Assembly (NCBI GenBank): GCA_014799405.1
Contig: JAAVIA010000007.1
Span: 17,712 to 56,080, forward strand
Length of the DNA: 38,369 nucleotides
Direction of reading: 5' to 3'
Source: Lachnospiraceae bacterium
GTDB lineage: Bacteria; Bacillota; Clostridia; Lachnospirales; Lachnospiraceae
The position numbers were made by a program, and so were the translations under genes. Positions 4,738 through 38,369 of the stretch are shown piece after piece; the first letter of the stretch is position 1, and each line of letters opens with the position of its first letter. The notes below the pieces were generated by a model. That model was not told the DNA's origin, did no database searches, and saw nothing but the letters and a program-made list of their open reading frames with translations.

Positions 4738-7700
4738 GTGATGATGAAGAAATTTGTAAAAAAGAATAGTTTTACAAAAAGAATGGTTGCACTTATGCTT
4801 GTGTTACTTTTGCTTACTACGCTTATTCCTTCAGATTTGAGCTTAAAGGCGGAGGGTGAAAATACCTTATTTGACGGAACAAGCATCATCATGTCAAGCA
4901 TGATATTTGATGCCACATATAAAGATGAAAATGGTAAGGATGTAACAGTTACCGTAGTTCCCAGCGATACGACGGAGCTTCCTGCAAATGCAACGATTAA
5001 TCTTATGATGAATTTCCTGCTTCAGGATGGAAGCTTTGTGAAGGCGGACACACCGTATGTCTATAACGTGCCTAAGGGAATAAGGGTTGACGTCAATACA
5101 ACGCTGCCCCTTACAATAGCCGGAAAAGAAGAGGCTATCGGTAACGTTGTTATATCAAAGGATGGTACGCTGACATTCTATTTTGACACGGATGTAATTG
5201 GAGACAGTAAGGGTGTCGGCTTCTATGTAGGCTTTGGCGGCGGTTTAAGTGAAGACCTTGAGGAGAAGGATGAGGAATTAAACATACAGTTCCCAACCGG
5301 AGGAGGCTCCTTTGATTTTAATATAAAGTCTAAGGGCGATACCACTCCTGACAGAGAGGATGATGGCTCAAATGCCGTTATAAACAAATCGGGAAACTTT
5401 GTAACAGGAGATGACGGTAAGCAGTATGTAGAATGGACTGTTGCTCTTAGAAACAAAAACGGAGATGTAATAGAGGGAGACATTACTGATGACTTGCCGG
5501 AGGGACTTACATATGCGGGAAATGTAACTGTAAATGGTAAAACTTATCCGAGCATATCAGGCAATTCATGGGGCTATAATGCAGAACATGGCGCTCCGAG
5601 AATGGATGTTACAACACCGGAGGGTGGTACATCCGTAAATATCCATGTGGAAAACTGTAAACCGGATTGGGAGACACAGGTTACATTTTTGACAGTCATG
5701 GATGCAAATAAGATATATGGGGATAAGATTGACGCAAATAGTTCCGCTGAGATTAATAACTCGGCAACCTTTAATCCACGTGATGATGAGGAGGGCGTAA
5801 GCAACTCTGTAAAGCTTACAAAGAAACCGAATGCACTGAGTAAGTCAAAAAGTAATGTAGATGCTGACGGAAATGTTGAATGGACCGTAACGGTAAATGC
5901 AGACAAACTTGATATAAGTGGTACGGTTGTTATGGACAACTGGGAAAACGGAACCCTTGTTGGAGATACTATCATTGTACAGAAGGCTGATGGCTCCAAA
6001 TTTGGAGAAGCAACGATAACTGGTAATGGCTTTCAATATAACGTACCTGAAAACTGTAATGAGACACTTATCATAAAATACAAAACACATGTAGATGACA
6101 TTGAGAAGGAGAGCAAGAATAAGGTAACTATTACGGGCGGAAAAGATCCTGAATTTGACCTTGAAAGCTCTGCTAGCGTACCAGGTGCTAATTTGTTAAA
6201 AAAAGAAGGAAAGGGTTATGACCCTATATCCCAGAGAGCTACATGGGTTATAACTGTGAATGAGAGCGGAATACTTCTGAAAGGGGTTACCGTTGAGGAT
6301 GTTTTTCCGGGAGAGTTTTTTGATAAGGACTCAGTTATCGTAAGTACCAATCCTTCTGTGGGTTCGGTTGGAAATGTTACTGCGGCGTCAGAAAATCCCA
6401 ATGGATATAATGACCCACAGGGTATTACCATTAACTTAGGAGATATCCAGGACACAGTTTATATAACGGTTTCCATGAAAATTAACGAGAGTGTGGCGGA
6501 AGGAGGGACTACATTTAGGAATACTGCAATCCTTCACTCCCCTACAATCAATGATAAAAAAGTACCGGGGGATTTTTGGGGAACGGTTGAGAAAGTAAAG
6601 CTGTCACAAAAATGGGGAAAGAAAACAGACAATAAGGAAGGCTATATTACATGGACCATAGAGATTAAGGGACAAAAGCAGAGACCGGAAGGATACACAT
6701 TAAAGGATTATCTCCCTGAAAATATGGAGTATGTTCCGGGAAGCTTCCGTGTGCAAAACCAGTATTATGATGGCAATCCGAGCTATAAGCCGCAGGTAAC
6801 TGTGGTTACAACCGGACAGGATGGACTGTCGATTGACAAGCCATACATAGAATACACCTTTGACCCTGCGGCAGATGCCCGTTTCTTAGATATGATTGGC
6901 AATGGAACCGCTTTTTGGGTTCAATATGAAACAAGAGTAAAAAATGTGGAAGATGCCCAAAAGGAGACTACATATGAGAACAGCGTGGATGTAACAGGAA
7001 AGTTCCCTGGTGGCGTAACTGTAACACAAAAAGAAGATGCAAAAGTAAAAGAAACTCTTGGCGGTATTCTCGGTAAGGAGTATGCCTATAAAGAGGGAAA
7101 CAGAGAGGTTACATGGACTGTTAAGATAAATGAAGCAAAAACTGATATGAGTGCAATCAAAAATCCTACCATAAAGGACCAGCTTGAGGATTACCTTGAA
7201 TACAAGTCAGGCTCGGGAAAACTTTATTTGGTAAACGCTGATGGCACAAGGACAGAAGTTCCGACTACAAATTATCAGATTGCAGTTGTAAATAATCTTG
7301 TAACCGTAGTGCTTCCTAATATTTCTACAAACTATTATGAATTTGAGTTTACTACAAGCTTTCTCAAGGGCGCAGGCGATATGCAACAAATTAAGGTAAA
7401 CAATAAGGTTGACCTTGTGGGAGACGGACAAATAGCCCACAAGCAGACCACTGACGTAACAAATATTAATTTTAGCTCTAATTCGGCGGGCTCATCTATA
7501 AAGCGTCAGATACGTGTAAGGAAGGTGGATGCATCCTCAAATAAACCGTTGGAGGGTGCTACCTTTGAGCTTTACCTTCCGGGTAAAACCGCAGACAGAG
7601 ACATATTGATAGGTAAAGCAGTTACGGGTAAGGACGGATATGCCGTATTTGAGGAAACTGATACACTGCTTGATGCGACCTTAAAGCTTAAGGAAACGGA

Positions 7701-10700
7701 CACACCACCCGGCTATGAGTATTTGGCAGGTACAACCAATACAGGGGATATAACCTCTGAGGATGGTGTAACGACAATTAAAAACTTTACTGAGTCAAGT
7801 CTTCAGTCTGATATAAATGGATTGTATTACGAAATTGTTATACCGAATAGAAACGAAAATGATGTTACAACTGCTGACATCAAGCTTAAAAAAATGAATG
7901 CCAATAAGACAACCGTACTTCCAAATGCAGTGTACGGACTTTACACGGATGAGGCTTGCACTACACTTAAGGGTGTAACAAAGGCTACGGATAGTACCGG
8001 CTATGTTACCTTTGGAAATATTCCTGAGGGAATCTATTGGCTTAAGGAGGTTACGCCGCCTGACGGTTATAAGCTTTCGAGTCAGAAGGTAAAGGTTGAG
8101 GTAATCGTTGATAAAACCGCAACACCTGCAACGGTATCAGTAAAATATGACAATGACGATGCTTATGAGGTTACGGTTACAGATGATAAGGCAACAGGAA
8201 AATTCACTATAACTAAGGTAGAATCAGGCAGCAAAACCAATGAAAAGATTGCGGGCGTTAAGTTTGAAATCTACAAGGATGAGGCGTGTACCCTTTTGGT
8301 GGCTTCTGCAACAACAGATGCAAATGGTATAGCTGAATTTACTAATCTTGATCTTGGAAGAACATATTGGTATAAGGAGGCAAGCGCTCCGGATAAGTAT
8401 GTGCTTGATGAAACAGTGAGAAGCGTTAAGGTAGGTACAGGAACAGAGACTACCGACCAAAGTAAAAAGGAGACGATATACAATAGTCTTAAGCTTGGAA
8501 ATATCGTTCTCACAAAGCAGGATGACAGCATTCCTGCAAGAAGGCTTGAAGGAGTCGAATTTACTCTTTGGACTGCAGATGACGATGGCAATGCTATAGC
8601 TGCTTACAAAAAGAGTGATGGCACTAATTACATTGTTACCACCGATAAAAATGGTATGGCAACCTTTGAGGACATTCCTTTTGGCAATTATGTTGTTAGG
8701 GAGACAAAAGGAAAGACAAACTATGTTATGGCTGCCGATACGGCAATTACTGTAAATAAAACAGGTGACACTACCAGAACAATTATAAATAAGGCGGAAA
8801 GGTTTACCGTTACCATTGATAAAAGGGGTAATGATGGCAAACAGCTTCGGGGAGCAGAATTCACCTTGTACAATAAGGATGGAGTTGCCATAAGGACCGG
8901 TATTACGAATGCAAACGGAAGGCTTGTCTTTGAGGACATCCCGCTTAGGGATTATACAGGAAACTATACATTAAAGGAGACACAGACGCCTGATGGTTAT
9001 ATTACGGCGGCAGACAAAACAATAACATATACAGAAATAAAAGCTGCCCCACAGGTCAATAATGTATATCAAATTAATTTAACCAATGCAAATGCTATTA
9101 TTGATGAAAAACAGGCAGGTAAAGTGCTTCTTCGCAAGGTTGATGAAGATGGTAATAATCTTGCTGGTGCTGAGTATGTCATTATGGATGAGGATGGCAA
9201 TATAGTAGATACCACAATGTCAGCTGCGGACGGTTCTATATACTTTGAGAATCTCAAGTGGGGAACCTACTATATCGTTGAGACAAAAGCACCTGTAACT
9301 GACGATAATAAGGTTTATATACGTGACGAGAAAAAATATAAGGTCATTATCGATTCAAATGGTGACCCTGTGGAAACTACGGTTGCATATGTGGATGAAA
9401 ACGGCGTTGAACAAAAATATGAAACGAATGTTTTCACAAATATGCCACAGGAGGGAGGACTTCCTTTTGTAAGCTTTAAGTTTAAAAAGACAGATGATGC
9501 TACAACTGCAAATCCGATAAATGGTGCAGTTTTTAAGCTGTATAAATATGACCCTGAAGTTGATGCTGACTTTGTTGACACGGGCATAACGGGAGTCAGC
9601 GGTGGTGGTAGCATCGGCACCACGAGTGCAAACAATGGAATGGTTTATTTCAGACGTATATCTGTGGAGGATGATTCTGATGGCACAATTTATAGAATTG
9701 TGGAGACGGAAACCCTTTTTGGATATAAAAAGAGCGACATAAAATACGAAATTACAAAGGCAGAGTTTGAGGCCAATTATGACATGTATGTAGATGCTGA
9801 TCCTGATGACCCTAAGGCAAATCTTAGGGATGATGCTGAGATTTATTATCTTCCTACAGCAAATGCCACAGGACATCTTACCGGTTTGGCAAATGTCAGC
9901 ACTACAAGCGGTCTTACCGTTATAAACGAAAAGCTTTACGGAAGCATACAGCTTACAAAGCAGGGAGCTACGACAAACGTTAAGCTTGCAGGTGCAATAT
10001 TCTATATATGTGATGAAAACGGAACTCAAAAAAGAGTACCGGGTGAGAGTACCTATCGTAGAGTAACTACCAATGCACAGGGTATTGCTCTGTTTGAGAA
10101 TTTACCGTTTGGAACTTATTACATAAAGGAGGCGGCTCCTACCCCGGATGGCTATATACTGAACGATAAGATAATACGTGTCGAGGTAAATCAGGAGTCT
10201 TCGAAGGGTGCAATTCCTGTTACTGTTACGGATGCAAGAATTGGTCTTTATATAAGTAAGCAGGACCTTGGTATTGGCACGGAGGTTCCAGGTGCAACGC
10301 TTGTTCTTAAGGACAAAGCAACAGGAACGGTGATTGACCAGTGGGTATCAGGTGTGGACCCGCATCATTTAGACTTTAGCAAATTGAAAATTAACACAAG
10401 GTATACGTTGGAGGAGACTGCCGCACCGGATGGCTATGGTTATACAAAAAAAGTGGATTTTCGTATAAAGGAAGATGGAACAATAGAAAGGTATTCTGTG
10501 ATGGATGATCCCGAGTACGACGCAAACTATAATGCAGTACAAGGCGATGCCATTATTCTTTACGACGGTGCAGTTGATTTAACTGTTATAAAGGTGGAGA
10601 AAAACACAAATACTCCTATATCCGGCGCCAGACTTGCGATATATGATGATGCCGACAATGAGGTATTCAGATGGACGACGGGCGAGACCGGTGACTGTGC

Positions 10701-13116
10701 TGTGGGGCCGAAGCTTACTGTACCAAAGTCGGGCTATAAGGTATATACCATAAAGGAGCGATTTGCACCTTTGGCTTACATGCTTGCGGAGCCGATACAG
10801 TTTGCAGTCGATTCTGAGGCAAATGTATATGAGTATGCAAATGGAGCCGTAGGAGCTAAGATTACAGATGGTAAAATTCTGATGGAGGATGCGAAGAAGT
10901 CGGGTGCATTCTTTAGAAAGGTTGATGCGGAAAACTATGCTGATATTAAGGGAGCAAGGCTTGCCATATATGATATGACAGGTGGAGGAACCTTAGTTAG
11001 ACAGTGGACCAGTGACGGAACGCCTGAGCATTTTGCCGTTACAAGCAGCACTCCTTCTGCGGATGACGATTTGGTTGTGGGCAATACATATGAATTCAGG
11101 GAGCTTGCAGCGCCTGAGGGATATGCAGAGGCGATGACCGTTACATTTAAGATAACAAGCATCGATGCGGAAGGTAAGGCAGTGATAGAGGTGCTTGAAA
11201 ACGGAAACGACGATTCTCTGAACCATGACAATGATACCCTTCTTATGCATGACAAGAGGGTAACGCTTAAGATTAAGAAACAGGATACATTTGGAATGTA
11301 TCTGCCTGGTGCGGAGCTTGAAGTATATGAATATAACTTTGATGCCAAGAGGGCAGGAACGAAGCTTCAGACTATAACAACAGGTAAAACTGTAATTGAG
11401 GTTGATAACACGAAGCTTAAGCTGGGAGGCTATTACCTTATCAAGGAGACTGTTGCACCGGACGGCTTTGGATATGCGGATGATATTGTTGTTCACATTA
11501 AGGAAGACGGTGTGGCGGAAGCAGTCATGACCATATCAAGAAATGACGGAACATTTAATTATGATGAGCTTCCTGTTGTATATGAAAATGTAGTTTATGT
11601 GACTGACATTGATAATGTTGTAAGCATTGGAAAGCTTGATGCAGATGAGCTTATGAATGGAAAAAATGTACGTGTTGCAAATTCCGTGCTTAAGCTTACC
11701 TCCGATAATGACAGATTCTTTGAGGAGGTTGTGTGGAGCAGCAGTGACAGAGGCTCAGAACCGTTTGATATGTTGAAGTTTACACCTGGATGCACTTATA
11801 CTCTTACTGAGATTGGAGCACCGGACGGATATGCATATACGGATCCGATTAACTTCAGAATTGATGCAGACACAAGAGAGGTTTATATTTTAAATGATGA
11901 CGGCACGGAAGAAATTGCAGATAATCGTACAGTTTACATTTCGGATGCCAAAATAAACCTGAATGTGGCTAAGGTGGATATGCTTTCAGGCGAGTCGGTT
12001 GCAGGAGCAAAATTCCGTATCGTTGATGCTGATGGAGCGGTAGTTGTATCCTGGACCAGCAAGGATAAGGCTGACGCAATAGACACATCAAAGCTGAAAG
12101 CTGGAGACCCTGAATATTTGGCAGTAAATGCCGATTACAAGAAATATGCCGAGTACACGATACAGGAGGTTGAACCACCTGTAGGCTATGAGAAGGCAGA
12201 AGACGTTACATTTGCCATAGACGGAGACGGTAAGATGTATAATGTTACCGTGGATGAAAATGGACAGAAGCAGTACACATTATTTACTGTCACTGCCGGC
12301 GGTGTGAATATTAACCTTATAAGAGTTTCGGATGAGCCGAAGCTTAAGATAAGCAAGGTTGATATAATGGGTAAGGAGATTCCTAAGGCAACACTTACCA
12401 TATATGCCAAAGATGGCAGCGTGGACTTTGAACCTATTACATGGTCTACGGGAGAGACTGTAGGAGAGCCTAAATATATAAGCAAGAATGTGTTTACACC
12501 AAATGTAGAATATGTGGTTGAGGAGAATGTTGCACCAAACGGATATGCATATGCTCATAACATCACCTTCTACTTTGACGAAGAAGGCATGCTTTATGTT
12601 GACGGTGTTCCTATGGATGACTCAAGAAAAATCAATATGGTTGATGAGTCTATAAATGTAGTTGTAAGCAAGCAGGATGAAGAAAACGCAAATGAGATAA
12701 AGGGTGCGTCTCTTGCAATAAGAGACAGCAAGGGCGAGGTAATCTATACATTTGAAAGTGATGTAAGACCTACGTTGCTCCCATCAGACTTGTTTGTTGT
12801 TGAAAAAGGTAAGCTTTCATACTATACCCTTGAGGAACTTATGGCACCTGAGGGCTATCTGATGGCTGCACCTGTGAAATTTGCAATAGATGAATATGGA
12901 GTGATATATCTTGCAAACGAAAATGGTGAATATCAGCCAGCGACAGCTACAAATGGTTCGGTTGTCATGAAGGATGCAAGAGACCCTGATTACTCAGGTC
13001 GATTTAAAGGACCGAATACAGGTGATAATATGCCGATAATACCAATTGTTATATTGGGTATTGCAGCGCTTGGAGGAATAATTATACTTATAATAAGAAG
13101 AAAACGTGTACGATAA
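4738..13116 (+). CDS. Giant cell-wall-anchored surface protein with about 16 CnaB/SpaA repeats
   Basis: This 2792-residue protein would be exported and anchored to peptidoglycan. A basic, hydrophobic signal peptide covers residues 1-40. Residues about 45-920 contain some five adhesin-like modules sharing a (V/A)TWT(V/I)xI strand and a DxLPExxxY-type strand, as in collagen-binding/DUF11-like domains. From about residue 925 to 2740 I count 16 CnaB/SpaA modules, each opening with a (K/R)K(V/Q)D-type strand and closing with YxLKExxxPxGY. In that fold the opening Lys and closing Glu form an isopeptide bond. The end is a sorting signal: GPNTG (2758-2762), a hydrophobic helix and RRKRVR. The motif is not classical LPXTG, so the matching sortase is probably of another class; none is in the window. 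The start could be GTG 4738, ATG 4741 or ATG 4744; the AAGGGAG at 4724-4729 fits any of them. Confidence 0.9.
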   Translation: MMMKKFVKKNSFTKRMVALMLVLLLLTTLIPSDLSLKAEGENTLFDGTSIIMSSMIFDATYKDENGKDVTVTVVPSDTTELPANATINLMMNFLLQDGSFVKADTPYVYNVPKGIRVDVNTTLPLTIAGKEEAIGNVVISKDGTLTFYFDTDVIGDSKGVGFYVGFGGGLSEDLEEKDEELNIQFPTGGGSFDFNIKSKGDTTPDREDDGSNAVINKSGNFVTGDDGKQYVEWTVALRNKNGDVIEGDITDDLPEGLTYAGNVTVNGKTYPSISGNSWGYNAEHGAPRMDVTTPEGGTSVNIHVENCKPDWETQVTFLTVMDANKIYGDKIDANSSAEINNSATFNPRDDEEGVSNSVKLTKKPNALSKSKSNVDADGNVEWTVTVNADKLDISGTVVMDNWENGTLVGDTIIVQKADGSKFGEATITGNGFQYNVPENCNETLIIKYKTHVDDIEKESKNKVTITGGKDPEFDLESSASVPGANLLKKEGKGYDPISQRATWVITVNESGILLKGVTVEDVFPGEFFDKDSVIVSTNPSVGSVGNVTAASENPNGYNDPQGITINLGDIQDTVYITVSMKINESVAEGGTTFRNTAILHSPTINDKKVPGDFWGTVEKVKLSQKWGKKTDNKEGYITWTIEIKGQKQRPEGYTLKDYLPENMEYVPGSFRVQNQYYDGNPSYKPQVTVVTTGQDGLSIDKPYIEYTFDPAADARFLDMIGNGTAFWVQYETRVKNVEDAQKETTYENSVDVTGKFPGGVTVTQKEDAKVKETLGGILGKEYAYKEGNREVTWTVKINEAKTDMSAIKNPTIKDQLEDYLEYKSGSGKLYLVNADGTRTEVPTTNYQIAVVNNLVTVVLPNISTNYYEFEFTTSFLKGAGDMQQIKVNNKVDLVGDGQIAHKQTTDVTNINFSSNSAGSSIKRQIRVRKVDASSNKPLEGATFELYLPGKTADRDILIGKAVTGKDGYAVFEETDTLLDATLKLKETDTPPGYEYLAGTTNTGDITSEDGVTTIKNFTESSLQSDINGLYYEIVIPNRNENDVTTADIKLKKMNANKTTVLPNAVYGLYTDEACTTLKGVTKATDSTGYVTFGNIPEGIYWLKEVTPPDGYKLSSQKVKVEVIVDKTATPATVSVKYDNDDAYEVTVTDDKATGKFTITKVESGSKTNEKIAGVKFEIYKDEACTLLVASATTDANGIAEFTNLDLGRTYWYKEASAPDKYVLDETVRSVKVGTGTETTDQSKKETIYNSLKLGNIVLTKQDDSIPARRLEGVEFTLWTADDDGNAIAAYKKSDGTNYIVTTDKNGMATFEDIPFGNYVVRETKGKTNYVMAADTAITVNKTGDTTRTIINKAERFTVTIDKRGNDGKQLRGAEFTLYNKDGVAIRTGITNANGRLVFEDIPLRDYTGNYTLKETQTPDGYITAADKTITYTEIKAAPQVNNVYQINLTNANAIIDEKQAGKVLLRKVDEDGNNLAGAEYVIMDEDGNIVDTTMSAADGSIYFENLKWGTYYIVETKAPVTDDNKVYIRDEKKYKVIIDSNGDPVETTVAYVDENGVEQKYETNVFTNMPQEGGLPFVSFKFKKTDDATTANPINGAVFKLYKYDPEVDADFVDTGITGVSGGGSIGTTSANNGMVYFRRISVEDDSDGTIYRIVETETLFGYKKSDIKYEITKAEFEANYDMYVDADPDDPKANLRDDAEIYYLPTANATGHLTGLANVSTTSGLTVINEKLYGSIQLTKQGATTNVKLAGAIFYICDENGTQKRVPGESTYRRVTTNAQGIALFENLPFGTYYIKEAAPTPDGYILNDKIIRVEVNQESSKGAIPVTVTDARIGLYISKQDLGIGTEVPGATLVLKDKATGTVIDQWVSGVDPHHLDFSKLKINTRYTLEETAAPDGYGYTKKVDFRIKEDGTIERYSVMDDPEYDANYNAVQGDAIILYDGAVDLTVIKVEKNTNTPISGARLAIYDDADNEVFRWTTGETGDCAVGPKLTVPKSGYKVYTIKERFAPLAYMLAEPIQFAVDSEANVYEYANGAVGAKITDGKILMEDAKKSGAFFRKVDAENYADIKGARLAIYDMTGGGTLVRQWTSDGTPEHFAVTSSTPSADDDLVVGNTYEFRELAAPEGYAEAMTVTFKITSIDAEGKAVIEVLENGNDDSLNHDNDTLLMHDKRVTLKIKKQDTFGMYLPGAELEVYEYNFDAKRAGTKLQTITTGKTVIEVDNTKLKLGGYYLIKETVAPDGFGYADDIVVHIKEDGVAEAVMTISRNDGTFNYDELPVVYENVVYVTDIDNVVSIGKLDADELMNGKNVRVANSVLKLTSDNDRFFEEVVWSSSDRGSEPFDMLKFTPGCTYTLTEIGAPDGYAYTDPINFRIDADTREVYILNDDGTEEIADNRTVYISDAKINLNVAKVDMLSGESVAGAKFRIVDADGAVVVSWTSKDKADAIDTSKLKAGDPEYLAVNADYKKYAEYTIQEVEPPVGYEKAEDVTFAIDGDGKMYNVTVDENGQKQYTLFTVTAGGVNINLIRVSDEPKLKISKVDIMGKEIPKATLTIYAKDGSVDFEPITWSTGETVGEPKYISKNVFTPNVEYVVEENVAPNGYAYAHNITFYFDEEGMLYVDGVPMDDSRKINMVDESINVVVSKQDEENANEIKGASLAIRDSKGEVIYTFESDVRPTLLPSDLFVVEKGKLSYYTLEELMAPEGYLMAAPVKFAIDEYGVIYLANENGEYQPATATNGSVVMKDARDPDYSGRFKGPNTGDNMPIIPIVILGIAALGGIIILIIRRKRVR

Positions 13117-34061: not shown

Positions 34062-34078
34062 TAAGGGAGGAAATGTTC

Positions 34079-34474
34079 GTGGCTAAGAGTACAAGATTTT
34101 ACGGAACAGGTAGAAGAAAAAGCAGTATCGCACGAGTATATCTCGTACCGGGTACCGGAAAAATAACTATAAATAAAAAGGACATGGATGATTACTTCGG
34201 ATTAAACACACTTAAGGTAATCGTTCAGCAGCCATTTGCAGCAACAGGTACTACAGGAAAGTTTGACGTGCTTGTAAATGTTCATGGCGGTGGATTTACC
34301 GGTCAGGCAGGAGCAATCAGACATGGTATTTCAAGAGCACTTCTTCAGGCAGATGCAGATTACAGACCTGCACTTAAGAAGGCAGGCTTCTTAACAAGAG
34401 ACCCACGTATGAAGGAAAGAAAGAAATACGGTCTCAAGGCTGCAAGACGTGCACCACAGTTCTCGAAGAGATAA
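34079..34474 (+). CDS. rpsI: 30S ribosomal protein S9
   Basis: S9 reaches the P-site tRNA anticodon with its C-terminal tail. I choose GTG 34079 (131 residues, [20 protein letters not shown]) over ATG 34073, since GGGAGG at 34065-34070 is 8 bases from the GTG and only 2 from the ATG. The [20 protein letters not shown] block and the conserved tail ending FSKR, with its tRNA-contacting Lys-Arg, are present. A perfect terminator follows. Confidence 0.97.
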
Positions 34475-34500
34475 TATTAAAACATATAAGAGATTTTATG

Positions 34501-34536
34501 AAACCCTTGAAAGTTTGGACTTTCAAGGGTTTTCTT
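34501..34536 (+). terminator. rpsI terminator, perfect 14-bp stem
   Basis: AAACCCTTGAAAGT (34501-34514) and ACTTTCAAGGGTTT (34519-34532) pair perfectly around TTGG, followed by TCTTT. It is identical to the hairpin at 36649-36680. Confidence 0.92.
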
Positions 34537-34643
34537 TATGTCAGTGTTTTCTGGAATTGTGGTAAAAGGTACTGAATTTTGAAACGTAGAACACAAGTTG
34601 CACGTTTGGAAATTTGTAGATGCAGACCCACAGGTGACATTTA

Positions 34644-34672
34644 TTGACAATATAGTTTTAAAATGTTATATT
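34644..34672 (+). promoter_or_regulatory. Cassette 1 promoter, TTGACA-17-TATATT
   Basis: TTGACA (34644-34649) and TATATT (34667-34672) with a 17-bp spacer, conserved at 36792-36820. Initiation near 34679 leaves a leader of about 220 nt. Confidence 0.85.
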
Positions 34673-34678
34673 TTGTCT

Positions 34679-34901
34679 ATAAGCATGATAGGGGAAGTAA
34701 GTTCCCTATCGATTCCAGAATATTATTTTACAAAATGTAGCTATACGGTGGAAAATTAATATAGAGGGGAGGATATTAAGGGACGAATTGTCCTTGACAC
34801 TGTAAGAATGCACAGATACATCAACAATAGTTTGTTCAAACTAAGAATTCCATCGGTATACATTTCATAAAAAAAGAAAATACAAAGGGGAGATTTTTAA
34901 T
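34679..34901 (+). promoter_or_regulatory. Cassette 1 structured leader RNA, unknown class
   Basis: The leader begins with a hairpin at 34687-34710 (GATAGGGG.../...TTCCCTATC) that covaries with its duplicate. A long-range stem TATACGGTGG (34742-34751) with CCATCGGTATA (34850-34860, one bulged G) encloses AAGG-GAC/GTC-CTT (about 34778-34795) and TAGTTT/AAACTA (34828-34833 with 34838-34843). An internal GAGGGGAGGA (34764-34773) looks like a ribosome-binding site with no conventional start codon behind it; the true site AAAGGGGAG is at 34884-34892. It matches no riboswitch consensus I know. Confidence 0.6.
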
Positions 34902-35288
34902 ATGAAAAAAAACACGTTTAAGAAAAGAATCATAGCAACTATGATGGCAATGTTTATGGCTGTAAGTATGGTATGTATCAAAGCGGATGCTAAGTCCGTT
35001 GGAACGGGCACTATTTCAACGGTGGCAGCGGGATATACTTTACATGTGAGGGAGTCAGGTAATACAACTGAGCTTGGAGTCATGTATATGCATAAAAACT
35101 CAAAGGGTGTTTATAATAAATTTACGGCAAGCAAGAAATGTGGTGAAACAACAGTAAGAGTATCGAATGTGGATGCATGGTATGCGACAAGTACAATAGC
35201 GGAACTTCAAAGCGGTAAATATGTTGAGATATCGAAAGAAGCTACAAACCCAACCAAAGTATATGGTTCATGTACGGTGAATTACTAA
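34902..35288 (+). CDS. Small secreted protein of unknown function, cassette 1
   Basis: I do not recognise this 128-residue protein. It has a strong signal peptide: KKNTFKKRIIA, a Met/Ala/Val-rich core and a likely cleavage after ADA at residue 30. The mature part of about 98 residues is polar, beta-like and Tyr/Thr/Ser-rich, with two cysteines (80 and 124) that could form a disulphide. The end motif NPTKVYGSCTVNY is shared with its paralogue at 37050 (NPSKVYGACTVDY). The mature parts are about 47% identical by hand alignment while the 31-residue leader is fully identical. A terminator lies 17 bp after the stop. Confidence 0.8.
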   Translation: MKKNTFKKRIIATMMAMFMAVSMVCIKADAKSVGTGTISTVAAGYTLHVRESGNTTELGVMYMHKNSKGVYNKFTASKKCGETTVRVSNVDAWYATSTIAELQSGKYVEISKEATNPTKVYGSCTVNY

Positions 35289-35300
35289 ATTAACAGAGTA

Positions 35301-35352
35301 GGGATACCCAATTACATGTATAAATGTAATTGGGTGTTCCTGCTTTATTTTT
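35301..35352 (+). terminator. Terminator after small secreted protein 1
   Basis: ACCCAATTACAT (35306-35317) and ATGTAATTGGGT (35324-35335) pair perfectly, extended by GGGA/TTCC, then TGCTTTATTTTTT. It separates the small protein from the membrane-anchored gene, so the latter depends on readthrough or another promoter. Confidence 0.85.
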
Positions 35353-35379
35353 TAATTTCTAAAGTAAAGGGTGGATAAC

Positions 35380-36615
35380 ATGAAACGAATAATCAAATAT
35401 ATGGCATGTCTGCTTGCAATCGTAGTGATAGCAGCGGCTGTGTTTATAATAGTAAAGCTAAACAAAAAGTTCCCTGATGAAATTGTGTACAGTGAATATA
35501 TGCAGACATTCAGCGATAACGGAATGTATTTTATCAATAATAACCGGCTATGTTTTATTGATAATGCAACAGGGAAGGATGTTGTAGTCTGTAACCGGGC
35601 AAACTGTGAGCATAAGGACAAAACATGTAATGCCTATATTCCGGGTCATGGTATTGATATGTTGGTTTATGATGGATATATATATATATCATTCTTTGAA
35701 TCTGAATGGTCTTTTGGTGAAGATGGAGAAGAAACAAGGGAAACTCTAGTTACATTAACAAGGCTGGGAATTGACGGAGCACATAGGAAGGATATATATT
35801 CCGCAGATTCAGGGGCGGTTTTAAGCATGATGGCTGTGGGAGATACGATATATTTTACAGCATACACTGAACATGGTGAACATGAGGCAAATGTATGGAA
35901 AGAAGATAATGCCATATATGCATACAATATCCGTTGGAATAAATTAAAATGTATAAAAAACTATGATTATACTGAAGGAAGAATTTCGGAAGGGGTAGAA
36001 ATTATCGGAAGTAGCGATAAGGGCACATTATATATTAATTATGGCTATATAAAAGGTGATCCGGCAACGGGAGTAGTAACGGATATAATACAGGAAGTAA
36101 ATATAAATACAGGAGATGTGGTTGAGCTAAGAACATTTGAAGATGCATATCCGAGATTTTTCACAGAAAAAAATAAAAAATATATACAGACCTCGGATTT
36201 TGAAACAGATACACTTACGATGTTAGAGTGTGATGACAGCTTCGTTGAGACAAAGGAGCTGTTTACTGCGAGGGATGCAAGAGTTGACTGGCTTGGCGGA
36301 TACATGCATATCGTGACGTCGGATTATCTCAAGGCATTATATGATTATGAGGAAGACCGATGGTATATTGCAAAGACATCGTTTACGCAGGAGGGAACCT
36401 ATATATCGGATATAAAGAAGGTGGACCGTGATAAAAATGTTGTTTACATAGATGCAACAGACTATACAGGCTATAAGCCGGGCGATATGCTGCCAGGAGA
36501 CATAAGTAACAATGCCGTAAGAGACTGGGGCGTATTCCTTGAAGAAAATTTTGTCCCTTACGAGGACTTGACAGATGAACAGTTAAAGAGTCTGACATGG
36601 ATTGATATTAAGTAG
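35380..36615 (+). CDS. Membrane-anchored extracellular protein with C-x4-C-x-H-x4-C motif, cassette 1
   Basis: Function unknown. I choose ATG 35380 (411 residues) since the paralogue at 37570 also starts MKRIIKY; an in-frame GTG lies nine bases upstream. One N-terminal helix (about residues 8-25) has no lipobox, so it should be a type II anchor with the rest outside. The motif CNRANCEHKDKTC (Cys71, Cys76, His78, Cys83) could bind a metal or form disulphides. Repeated DGxYF, DGYIYIS, GDTIYFTAY and NAIYAYN stretches suggest a beta-propeller like DUF5050/TolB-type proteins. It ends 33 bp before a second copy of the rpsI terminator. Confidence 0.8.
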   Translation: MKRIIKYMACLLAIVVIAAAVFIIVKLNKKFPDEIVYSEYMQTFSDNGMYFINNNRLCFIDNATGKDVVVCNRANCEHKDKTCNAYIPGHGIDMLVYDGYIYISFFESEWSFGEDGEETRETLVTLTRLGIDGAHRKDIYSADSGAVLSMMAVGDTIYFTAYTEHGEHEANVWKEDNAIYAYNIRWNKLKCIKNYDYTEGRISEGVEIIGSSDKGTLYINYGYIKGDPATGVVTDIIQEVNINTGDVVELRTFEDAYPRFFTEKNKKYIQTSDFETDTLTMLECDDSFVETKELFTARDARVDWLGGYMHIVTSDYLKALYDYEEDRWYIAKTSFTQEGTYISDIKKVDRDKNVVYIDATDYTGYKPGDMLPGDISNNAVRDWGVFLEENFVPYEDLTDEQLKSLTWIDIK

Positions 36616-36648
36616 GAGATATTTTTAAAACATATAAGAGATTTTATG

Positions 36649-36684
36649 AAACCCTTGAAAGTTTGGACTTTCAAGGGTTTTCTT
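36649..36684 (+). terminator. Duplicated terminator, cassette 2
   Basis: The same perfect 14-bp stem as at 34501: AAACCCTTGAAAGT (36649-36662) with ACTTTCAAGGGTTT (36667-36680), then TCTTT. It now ends transcription of the cassette 1 membrane protein gene. Confidence 0.92.
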
Positions 36685-36791
36685 TATGTCAGTGTTTTCT
36701 GGAATTGTGGTAAAAGGTACTGAATTTTGAAACGTAGAACACAAGTTGCACGTTTGGAAATTTGTAGATGCAGACCCACAGGTGACATTTA

Positions 36792-36820
36792 TTGACAATA
36801 GAGTTTTAAAATGTTATATT
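36792..36820 (+). promoter_or_regulatory. Cassette 2 promoter, TTGACA-17-TATATT
   Basis: TTGACA (36792-36797) and TATATT (36815-36820), spacer 17 bp, identical boxes to cassette 1 with one spacer difference. Confidence 0.85.
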
Positions 36821-36826
36821 TTGTCT

Positions 36827-37049
36827 ATAAGCATGATAGAGAAAGTAAATTCTCTATCGATTCTGGAATATTATTTTACAAAATGTCGCTATATGGTGGA
36901 AAATTAATATAGAGGGGAGGATATTAAGGGACGAACTGTCTTTGACACTGTAAGAATGCGCAGATACATCAACAATAGTTTGTTCAAACTAAGAATTCCA
37001 TCGATATACATTTATTAAAAATAAAAAATACAAAGGGGAGATTTTTAAT
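36827..37049 (+). promoter_or_regulatory. Cassette 2 structured leader RNA
   Basis: This has the same fold as at 34679-34901. The first hairpin (36835-36858) is a perfect 9-bp stem GATAGAGAA/TTCTCTATC; relative to copy 1, one G-C pair became A-T by two changes and one G-U became A-T. The long-range stem becomes TATATGGTGG (36890-36899) with CCATCGATATA (36998-37008), keeping pairing through a G-U. The TAGTTT/AAACTA hairpin is unchanged. Confidence 0.6.
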
Positions 37050-37433
37050 ATGAAAAAAAACACGTTTAAGAAAAGAATCATAGCAACCATGATGGCAATG
37101 TTTATGGCTGTAAGTATGGTATGTATTAAAGCGGATGCTAAGACTGCAGGAACAGGGATACGCGAGTCAATAACAGCATATACCTTATATGTTCGGGAAA
37201 ATGAAAATACTAATTTGCTTGGAACAATGCGTATGACAATTCATTCTTCATATGTTCAAAATGAGTTTACGGCAGCAAAAGCTTGCGGATATACCACAGT
37301 ATCTGTATCCAATAATGGTATTGATTTTATATCCGGTGCTAAGCCTAATTTGTCAGCGGGTGATTTTTGTGGAGCAGTGAAATATGCAAATAATCCAAGT
37401 AAAGTATATGGGGCATGTACAGTAGATTATTAA
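37050..37433 (+). CDS. Small secreted protein of unknown function, cassette 2
   Basis: This is the 127-residue paralogue of the gene at 34902. The 31-residue signal peptide is identical, with only two synonymous base differences over its codons. The mature part keeps GTG, YTL-VRE, FTA-K-CG-TTV-VSN and VYGACTVDY but differs at about half its positions and gains a third cysteine (in GDFCGAV). AAAGGGGAG precedes the ATG. The contrast between frozen leader and variable mature part recalls secreted antigens or effectors, but no function is shown. Confidence 0.8.
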   Translation: MKKNTFKKRIIATMMAMFMAVSMVCIKADAKTAGTGIRESITAYTLYVRENENTNLLGTMRMTIHSSYVQNEFTAAKACGYTTVSVSNNGIDFISGAKPNLSAGDFCGAVKYANNPSKVYGACTVDY

Positions 37434-37441
37434 ATTTATGA

Positions 37442-37500
37442 GGCAGGAATGGCTGTCGCAGTAAGAATATTTATATTGCGGCAGCCCATTCCTGCTTTTT
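37442..37500 (+). terminator. Terminator after small secreted protein 2
   Basis: GGCAGGAATGG-CTGTCGC pairs with GCGGCAGCCCATTCCTGC with a single-base bulge, followed by TTTTTG. It lies where cassette 1 has a terminator of unrelated sequence. Its core resembles the hairpin after secY. Confidence 0.85.
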
Positions 37501-37569
37501 GTTTCTAATAGGTGTAGTTCGAAGGCAAATAAGGAATAGCTGACGTTCAAAGAGTAAAGGAGAAAAGGT

Positions 37570-38369
37570 ATGAAACGAATAATAAAATATTGTGTCTGTC
37601 TGCTTGTTACAGTTGCTTTGGCTGTTGGGATATTCGTAGCAGTGAAGCTGAATCAAAAATTTCCTGATGAAATTGTGTATAGCGGATATCTACAGGCATT
37701 TAGTGAGGATGGAATGTATTATATGAAAGACGAACGCTTATATTTTATGGATAATGCTACAGGGGAAAAGGCGGTAGTCTGTAACCGGGCAAACTGTGAA
37801 CACAATGACAATTCATGTAATGCTTATATTCCGGGGATGGGCAGCGAAATATTGGTTTATGGGGATTACATATATATATCGTATTTTGATAGTGATGTTT
37901 TTATAAATGACGCAGGGGAAGCCATCTATGAAGGTGATATTAAATTAATAAGGATAGGCATTAATGGAGAGGGAAGGAAGGAAATTTATACGGCAGATTC
38001 CGGCGCAGTTATAAATATGATAGCTATGGGGGATACAATATACTTTGCGACATGGATTCTTCATGGAGAATATCAGATGAACAAAAGTGAAAGTGATTGT
38101 GCCATATATGCATACAATATCCGCTGGAATAAATTAAAATGCATAAAGAATTATCCTCATATGGAAGAAATGACTTCGGAAGGGATAGAAATTATCGGAA
38201 TCAGCGATAAGGGGACGTTATATATTGATTATACGTATGTAAAAGGTGAGGAAAATACTACAGAAAGTATTACTGTTGCAGATGATGAAGAACTCGAAGA
38301 TATACTTGAAATAATAAAGCGTAAAAGCAAGGCAATAGTAGTGGACAAAATAGAAGAAATAAATATAAA
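37570..38369 (+). CDS. Membrane-anchored extracellular protein, cassette 2, 3' end outside the window
   Basis: The frame opens at ATG 37570 after AAAGGAG and stays open to the last base, giving 266 codons. It is the paralogue of the 35380 gene: MKRIIKY start, one transmembrane helix, KFPDEIVYSGYLQAFSEDGM, CNRANCEHNDNSC with Cys71, Cys76, His78 and Cys83 at the same positions, then YAYNIRWNKLKCIKNY. After KGTLYIDYTYVKGE it carries a charged insertion (ENTTESITVADDEELEDILE and on) missing in cassette 1. Function unknown. Confidence 0.8.
   Translation, partial: MKRIIKYCVCLLVTVALAVGIFVAVKLNQKFPDEIVYSGYLQAFSEDGMYYMKDERLYFMDNATGEKAVVCNRANCEHNDNSCNAYIPGMGSEILVYGDYIYISYFDSDVFINDAGEAIYEGDIKLIRIGINGEGRKEIYTADSGAVINMIAMGDTIYFATWILHGEYQMNKSESDCAIYAYNIRWNKLKCIKNYPHMEEMTSEGIEIIGISDKGTLYIDYTYVKGEENTTESITVADDEELEDILEIIKRKSKAIVVDKIEEINI

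Follow-up and report, generated by a model that had tools for sequence, protein, structure and literature searches.

How do two adjacent copies of a gene unit come to have nearly the same promoter, leader, and signal peptide and to encode mature proteins that have diverged strongly? The question is raised by the 3' end of a 38,369-nucleotide stretch of DNA from a Lachnospiraceae bacterium (the window: the whole stretch analyzed, G000:C7:17712-56080, that is, contig JAAVIA010000007.1 of assembly GCA_014799405.1). The source genome, G000, comprises 2.8 Mb in 61 contigs. The rpsI gene is followed by two units at a spacing of 2148 bp. In order, each comprises an rpsI-type terminator, a sigma-70-type promoter, a leader of ~230 nt, the gene for a small secreted protein (SSP), a hairpin followed by a run of T, and the gene for an anchored extracellular protein that we call the partner. 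A first-pass annotation made from the sequence had listed a terminator, promoter, small secreted protein, second terminator, and anchored protein for each unit; counterparts of all were predicted in both, the second terminator of unit 2 as a strong hairpin 3' of its SSP gene.

The spacing and the counts of differences given in that annotation were reproduced exactly. Positions 34477-34652 show 0 differences in 176 bp from the sequence 2148 bp further on, and 34477-34994, which extends to codon 31, differs at 19 of 518 bp, beginning at 34653. The mature SSPs are strongly diverged, as had been reported, with 45 identical of 96 aligned residues (about 46 of 98 in the earlier count). DNA identity between the units is 0.989 over 34468-34643, 0.934 in the remaining leader, and 0.978 in the signal; it is 0.56 in the mature SSP and 0.556 in the intergenic region. 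The stepwise fall described earlier holds as far as the mature part, but identity rises again along the partner genes (0.70, 0.76, and 0.89 by thirds) toward their 3' ends, partly beyond the window. Synonymous divergence (dS) between the units is 0.14 in the signal, a rough value because it rests on 31 codons, 1.60 in the mature SSP, and 1.61, 0.85, 0.63, and 0.33 along the partner.

Ten units encoding SSPs of this family, one of them truncated, were found in six genomes (G000, G011, G015, G022, G034, and G035) of a genus set of 37 that also includes G029. Trees were built on seven units, leaving out the G034 unit, unit 3 (a diverged unit on contig C38 of G000), and the G035 counterpart of unit 3. 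In the leader and signal, unit 1 grouped with unit 2 (support 99/98), and a grouping of unit 2 with G015 and G035a was rejected (approximately unbiased test, p-AU 0.00016). In the mature SSP, unit 2 grouped with G015 and G035a (99/99), and the pairing of units 1 and 2 was rejected (p-AU 1.4e-68). The same placement of unit 2 was obtained with each of three partner segments (100/100, 99/98, and 98/98), which also rejected the pairing of units 1 and 2 (p-AU 1.5e-4, 1.3e-11, and 1.8e-4). The mature SSP and the three partner segments of unit 2 thus travel as one allele block.

In the mature SSP, dS from unit 2 to G015 and G035a is 0.40 and 0.38, like that of the ABC ATPase and permease genes of the locus (0.21-0.23 from G000 to G011, 0.35-0.36 to G015, and 0.35-0.45 to G035), and these therefore look like orthologous alleles. 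The species baseline varies from gene to gene here, above all for G011, since dS to G000 lies below the ABC values in the HU gene (0.13-0.24) and above them in an AbrB/SpoVT-like gene (0.51 to G015, 0.39 to G035, 2.21 to G022, and saturated to G011). Judged by these divergences, the SSP alleles of unit 2, G015, and G035a look older than the leader that units 1 and 2 have in common.

Sites that split the allele types number one in the leader, none in the signal, and 35 in the mature part, the first of the mature sites being at 37143. Units 1 and 2 have six private sites in the leader, four in the signal, and three in the mature part, and the last one in the signal is at 37140. The recombination switch lies between these two positions, at codon 31/32 of SSP2, adjoining the likely cleavage site after ADA (codons 28-30, read by eye). 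A four-sequence site scan put its single best breakpoint in the leader (leader tally 9 to 9), because changes found only in unit 1 count against the pairing of units 1 and 2; adding G011 separated these changes. Given the incompatible trees and the jump in synonymous divergence, the control and signal region and the exported part must have recombined, and we are nearly certain that the mosaic reflects recombination between allelic cassettes. Of the two causes suggested in the first-pass annotation, recombination of the control region stands, and diversifying selection acting alone is contradicted by the ten-fold jump in dS. As to the route, unequal exchange between strains with different alleles behind rpsI and duplication followed by conversion both fit, and either may have operated.

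The mosaic pattern repeats in a second SSP subfamily. Behind its RNase P protein gene (PF00825), G029 carries a tandem (L092 5900-9651) of two cassettes, each with an SSP-like gene and a partner gene, and then one ABC ATPase and a permease. Between these cassettes the leader and signal are 98%-100% identical, the mature part is 58%-69% identical, and the last ~350 bp of the partner are 97%-100% identical. In pairwise comparison, the second G029 SSP resembles the SSP of G022 (82/117) at least as closely as it does the first G029 SSP (73/122). The G029-type SSP matches SSP1 weakly (27% over 83 residues, E 0.006, in a single comparison), so the two subfamilies are taken as related on account of their layout and partner. 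The G029 subfamily has no hairpin between the SSP-like gene and the partner.

What might the swapped proteins do? SSP1 (34902..35288; 128 aa, with a signal to about codon 30) and SSP2 (37050..37433; 127 aa), both encoded on the forward strand like all features of the locus given here, have two cysteines and mature parts of ~97-98 residues. A structure model of SSP1 is all beta, with a predicted local distance difference test score (pLDDT) of 91-98 per ten-residue block from residue 31 onward; residues 7-20 form a helix of low confidence, and the signal, with ADA at 28-30, was read by eye. Partner 1 (35380..36615; 411 aa), the proposed immunity protein, has an N-terminal hydrophobic segment (by eye), and partner 2 (435 aa) starts at 37570 and runs past the window end at 38369 to contig position 56588. 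By eye, the partner may be propeller-like. Neither SSP nor partner matched a family in the libraries searched, and searches of solved structures by sequence gave nothing convincing for the SSP and no match for the partner. A PADLOC search returned nothing, SSP1 had no match on plasmids or phages, and a literature search, itself limited, found no paper on the SSP/partner pair. The profile and structure searches proposed in the first-pass annotation have thus given a confident all-beta model for SSP1 and no family assignment.

We think it rather probable that the SSP is a Sec-secreted, bacteriocin-like beta protein with a cognate protector. The layout, the mosaic, the position of the switch, the allele grouping of unit 2, and the recurrence in a second subfamily are observed, whereas killing, immunity, attenuation, and the precise course of the exchange are inferred. 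The SSP would be exported by its Sec-type signal, cleaved to the two-cysteine beta protein of the length given above, and act extracellularly, most probably against relatives as a bacteriocin of narrow range. The partner, on the outer face of the producer's membrane, would act with the ABC ATPase and permease in self-protection specific to the producer's own SSP variant, and the hairpin after the SSP gene would pass only part of the transcription on to the partner, leaving the SSP in excess. The genus would hold two old allele lineages, and recombination through the conserved leader and signal and through the conserved 3' end of the partner would move the variable middle as a block; in G000, two alleles would have been joined in tandem behind rpsI with near-identical promoters and leaders. 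The pair of units resembles a reserve of antibacterial proteins, each kept with a self-protection gene to match, and it provides a sharply mapped case, in Lachnospiraceae, of toxin-immunity-like cassettes swapped at the signal-peptide boundary. In G035, one SSP gene is truncated (99 aa, L034 7813-8112) and the partner, ABC ATPase, and permease genes are open, which is expected if protection outlasts loss of the toxin.

Several results weigh against this proposal. Allele type 1 (unit 1, G011, and G035b) forms a clade in the mature SSP (98/97) and weakly in partner residues 1-140 (83/92), and this clade was not recovered in the partner beyond residue 140; one-block inheritance for type 1 extends to the SSP and, weakly, to the first 140 partner residues only. 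The limited reach of the variable-middle pattern and of the type 1 block slightly lowers our confidence in antagonism with a cognate protector. The SSP also has no match to the lactococcin 972 family. PF09683 was over its cut-off in 0/9 genomes, with no weak match at any SSP gene; SSP1, SSP2, and five other SSPs gave no PF09683 match at E ≤ 1 and no TIGR match; and DUF1430 was not found in Pfam searches at E ≤ 1 with partner 1, the permease, and the first half of partner 2. Lcn972 was absent among the listed fold matches of the SSP1 model, which says nothing either way.

By these defining tests the SSPs do not belong to the lactococcin 972 family, though they may work like one of its members. 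Mediterrocin, from a Lachnospiraceae species, is described as a 114-residue precursor with 89 mature residues (PMC12345188), and in two accounts of Lcn972-type clusters, the genes behind the bacteriocin, including an ABC ATPase gene, are thought to give immunity (PMC12345188, PMC4055356). Lcn972 and mediterrocin are unmodified small proteins with a Sec-type signal; the SSPs are of similar size and have a putative signal of that type (read by eye), and an ABC ATPase occurs in both kinds of cluster. Apart from the missing PF09683 and TIGR matches, they differ in that the partner shows by eye a single hydrophobic segment at its N terminus and an extensive outer portion in place of a seven-pass DUF1430 protein, and in that tandem allele cassettes with a common leader are not described in the passages of those accounts consulted.

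A similar evolutionary mode is known from the pneumococcal blp region, for which a conserved regulatory part, common leader sequences, variable bacteriocin and immunity genes, and recombination as the proposed driver are described (PMC4860687). The blp peptides have double-glycine leaders and dedicated export, whereas the signal here looks Sec-type. The partner also invites comparison with Tsi1, described as an immunity protein that is exported, has a partly propeller-like fold, and works outside the cytoplasm (PMC3391265), but Tse1/Tsi1 is a type VI amidase and periplasmic inhibitor pair of Gram-negatives, and the partner lacks a solved-structure match by sequence. Formosin D (PDB 9hkj) likewise counts among the nearest known systems. 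We know of no relation between the blp proteins and the SSP or partner.

The SSP could instead be a secreted signal or ligand, with the partner and ABC transporter as sensor or uptake system and the variants as specificity groups, as in pheromone typing. We consider this unlikely, but several neighborhoods fit it. The G034 unit is preceded by a LytTR response regulator, a GHKL kinase, AgrB (PF04647, 105 bits), and AgrD (TIGR04223, 28.3 over a cut-off of 19) and followed by an ABC ATPase and permease; two-component-like genes were seen by eye in G076. Two G000 loci (L096 1717-10087 and L095 3466-9890, on C26 and C5) each encode a partner-like protein, an ABC ATPase, and a permease; no SSP of at least 60 aa was seen in either. 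One has AgrB (on C26; PF04647, 110 bits), and the other has a two-component pair (by eye). However, a folded beta protein of ~97 residues is large for a pheromone, and agr adjoins 1/10 family units, where the AgrD peptide itself would be the signal. Neither agrB nor agrD was seen by eye beside the window units; since G000 encodes an AgrB elsewhere (C26), agr might act on these units in trans.

It is improbable that host immunity has diversified the exported part as a protein of the cell surface or of host interaction with variable antigenicity. Most Lachnospiraceae live in the gut, and a frozen signal with a variable mature part would suit this explanation, as would the ratio of nonsynonymous to synonymous divergence (dN/dS) of 1.0-1.2 in the C-terminal half of the SSP in allele type 2. 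Against it, the same ratio is 0.7 for type 1, whereas type 3 gives 0.5 and 1.1 and the G029 group 0.3-0.6. The regional analysis of selection called for in the first-pass annotation was carried out as local dN/dS, and dN did not significantly exceed dS in any window; the p values are rough, since the pairs that were pooled lack independence. One pair gave dN 0.20 against dS 0.08 in partner residues 141-275, which was unremarkable once three pairs were pooled. Moreover, the SSP has no anchor (by eye), the truncated SSP with an open partner fits poorly, and the variation is common to the partner gene and tied to the ABC module and, in G034, to quorum-sensing genes.

Marginally less probable again is an assembly artefact in which two strain variants of one locus from a mixed sample were strung together. 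The 61 contigs of the genome, the repeat nature of the leader, and the two G011 contigs that end inside the leader are compatible with a misjoin, but the leaders differ at 19 sites, the junction of the partner 1 flank with rpsI-following sequence (36616..36640) has just a short GAGATA common to both, few bases for a k-mer misjoin, and G029 carries a comparable tandem independent of this one. Simple tandem duplication with later diversifying selection, and with no recombination between alleles, could draw on constraint in the signal and leader and a less constrained mature part, but it is highly implausible, as dS also rises between these parts and unit 2 past codon 31 is nearer to units of other genomes than to unit 1; the dS jump and the trees rule out duplication or diversifying selection by itself.

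The element behind which the alleles were exchanged recurs in the genus. The conserved leader motif lies at 34727..34865 (core 34747-34784) in unit 1 and at 36875..37013 in unit 2, and a model built from seven sequences found 11 copies at E ≤ 1.1e-10 in 6/37 genus genomes, besides two chance-level matches (E 0.18 and 0.97) in two others. The core GGTGGRAAATTAATATAGRGGGGAGGATATTAARGRAC is common to all 11 copies. Seven copies precede family SSPs; of the four that do not, three unexpectedly stand before other secreted systems of the genus. One copy in G022 (C15, L107 5031-5171, reverse strand) stands before a 156-aa Cys protein with a signal and ABC-type genes, with a LytTR gene upstream (PF04397, 60 bits); one in G011 (C39, L109 5173-5293, reverse strand) stands before a 146-aa open reading frame (ORF) with a signal and FtsX-like permeases; one in G029 (C12, L108 2777-2906, forward strand) precedes a 1075-aa protein containing VWA and DUF3289 domains; and one in G011 (C35, L110 2650-2732, forward strand) is cut by the contig end. 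The 156-aa and 146-aa proteins have no convincing similarity to SSP1 (E 0.07 and 91). Four leader copies with upstream sequence were examined by eye, and each has a TTGACA-type promoter. Behind the VWA-DUF3289 gene are two near-identical small genes (L108 6239-6748 and 6900-7298; 169 and 132 aa) that look by eye like a duplicated immunity gene.

The leader had been called structured, and part of that description holds. Folding z-scores against shuffles are modest (-2.0 and -2.3). In the first leader hairpin (34687..34710 in unit 1), 3 of the 19 unit differences fall in the stem and all keep pairing: 34692 and 34705 change on both sides of one pair, and 34694 changes with its pair kept. Covariation in the leader core is virtually absent (RNAalifold terms +1.13 and +0.16; pairs changed on both sides, 1/43 and 0/19) because the core hardly varies. 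The structured reading rests on conservation, these z-scores, and one compensatory pair, and a DNA operator is as possible as an RNA. No Rfam family matched at gathering, and five sub-threshold matches (E 0.26-8.4) were all to snoRNA or miRNA families. The motif was not found in 298 other family genomes by model with strict filters, in 396 by pattern (one genome in each set is of the same genus), in viral contigs, or at the G034 unit. The leader is a regulatory element not found outside the genus in the searches made, and it offers a route to further secreted systems in these genomes. More tentatively, it may be an undescribed element that marks an antagonism regulon of the genus, placed before four unlike secreted systems; the signal cleavage site could then be a natural exchange point, at which an incoming toxin and partner are plugged in behind a fixed promoter, leader, and export signal, and arrays could grow by allele capture.

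Partners are found more widely than SSPs. SSP searches gave matches in 13/145 relatives at E ≤ 0.01, of which six weak ones were taken as chance and G076 was kept. An SSP profile matched 88/397 family genomes at the same threshold; nearly all of these matches were apparent signal peptides, with a short range in long host ORFs, and the ones kept were G368 (E 6.7e-8) and G076, whose sequence is among the rows from which the profile was made. Partners occur in 7/37 genus genomes, including G029, and in 20/299 genomes drawn from the family at E ≤ 1e-8. Of 18 distant partner loci in 17 genomes, 13 have an ABC ATPase no more than a few genes away, as flagged by a script, and a small signal-bearing ORF shortly upstream was seen by eye in 5. 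The partner and ABC module, being present at distant loci, is thus wider than the SSP, and it may serve the envelope more generally, toxins having been coupled to it.

The first-pass annotation had expected that more units might follow unit 2. Instead, one ABC ATPase (PF00005, 96 bits) and then one 695-aa permease-like protein are encoded 3' of partner 2, no third copy of the repeats was found in 14 kb searched beyond the window, and the third unit of the genome is the one on C38. It had also held that single cassettes in related genomes would count against a diversified system. Five relatives do have one ABC-linked unit each (G011, G015, G022, and G035, with G034 in another setting), but G035 and G000 have three units in all and G029 has its tandem. 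Beyond the permease are a sodium:neurotransmitter symporter (PF00209), a hybrid kinase, the AbrB/SpoVT-like regulator (PF15714), and an HU-like gene (by eye). Past the window, the database sequence has scattered N in partner 2, the ATPase, and the permease (L005 5950-9581).

The rpsI gene (34073..34474) borders the locus on its left in both G000 and G015. Its intrinsic terminator (34500..34533) recurs with the same sequence at 36648..36681, and both promoters (34644..34672, with an extended -10 and 11/12 matches, and 36792..36820) read TTGACA-17-TATATT. Between 34400 and 37600 there are 7 terminator-like sites versus 1.3 in shuffles and 19 promoter-like sites versus 14.8; the promoter calls therefore rest on the 11/12 fit and conservation. 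The hairpins between SSP and partner (35297..35344, terminator-like, in unit 1; 37440..37498, predicted to be strong, in unit 2) are unlike in sequence. A strong hairpin 3' of the SSP, with sequences unlike one another, is the best fold in 9/10 family units; the exception is G035a, where the post-SSP region is paired differently in the best fold. In G015, extra sequence between rpsI and the leader (L033 8900-9540) may encode a small hydrophobic peptide and contains paired repeats; by eye, it resembles a type I toxin locus. Elsewhere in the window, 5' of the ribosomal protein genes, positions 4738-13116 encode a surface protein of 2792 aa that, by eye, contains numerous similar repeats and is anchored in the membrane at its C terminus.

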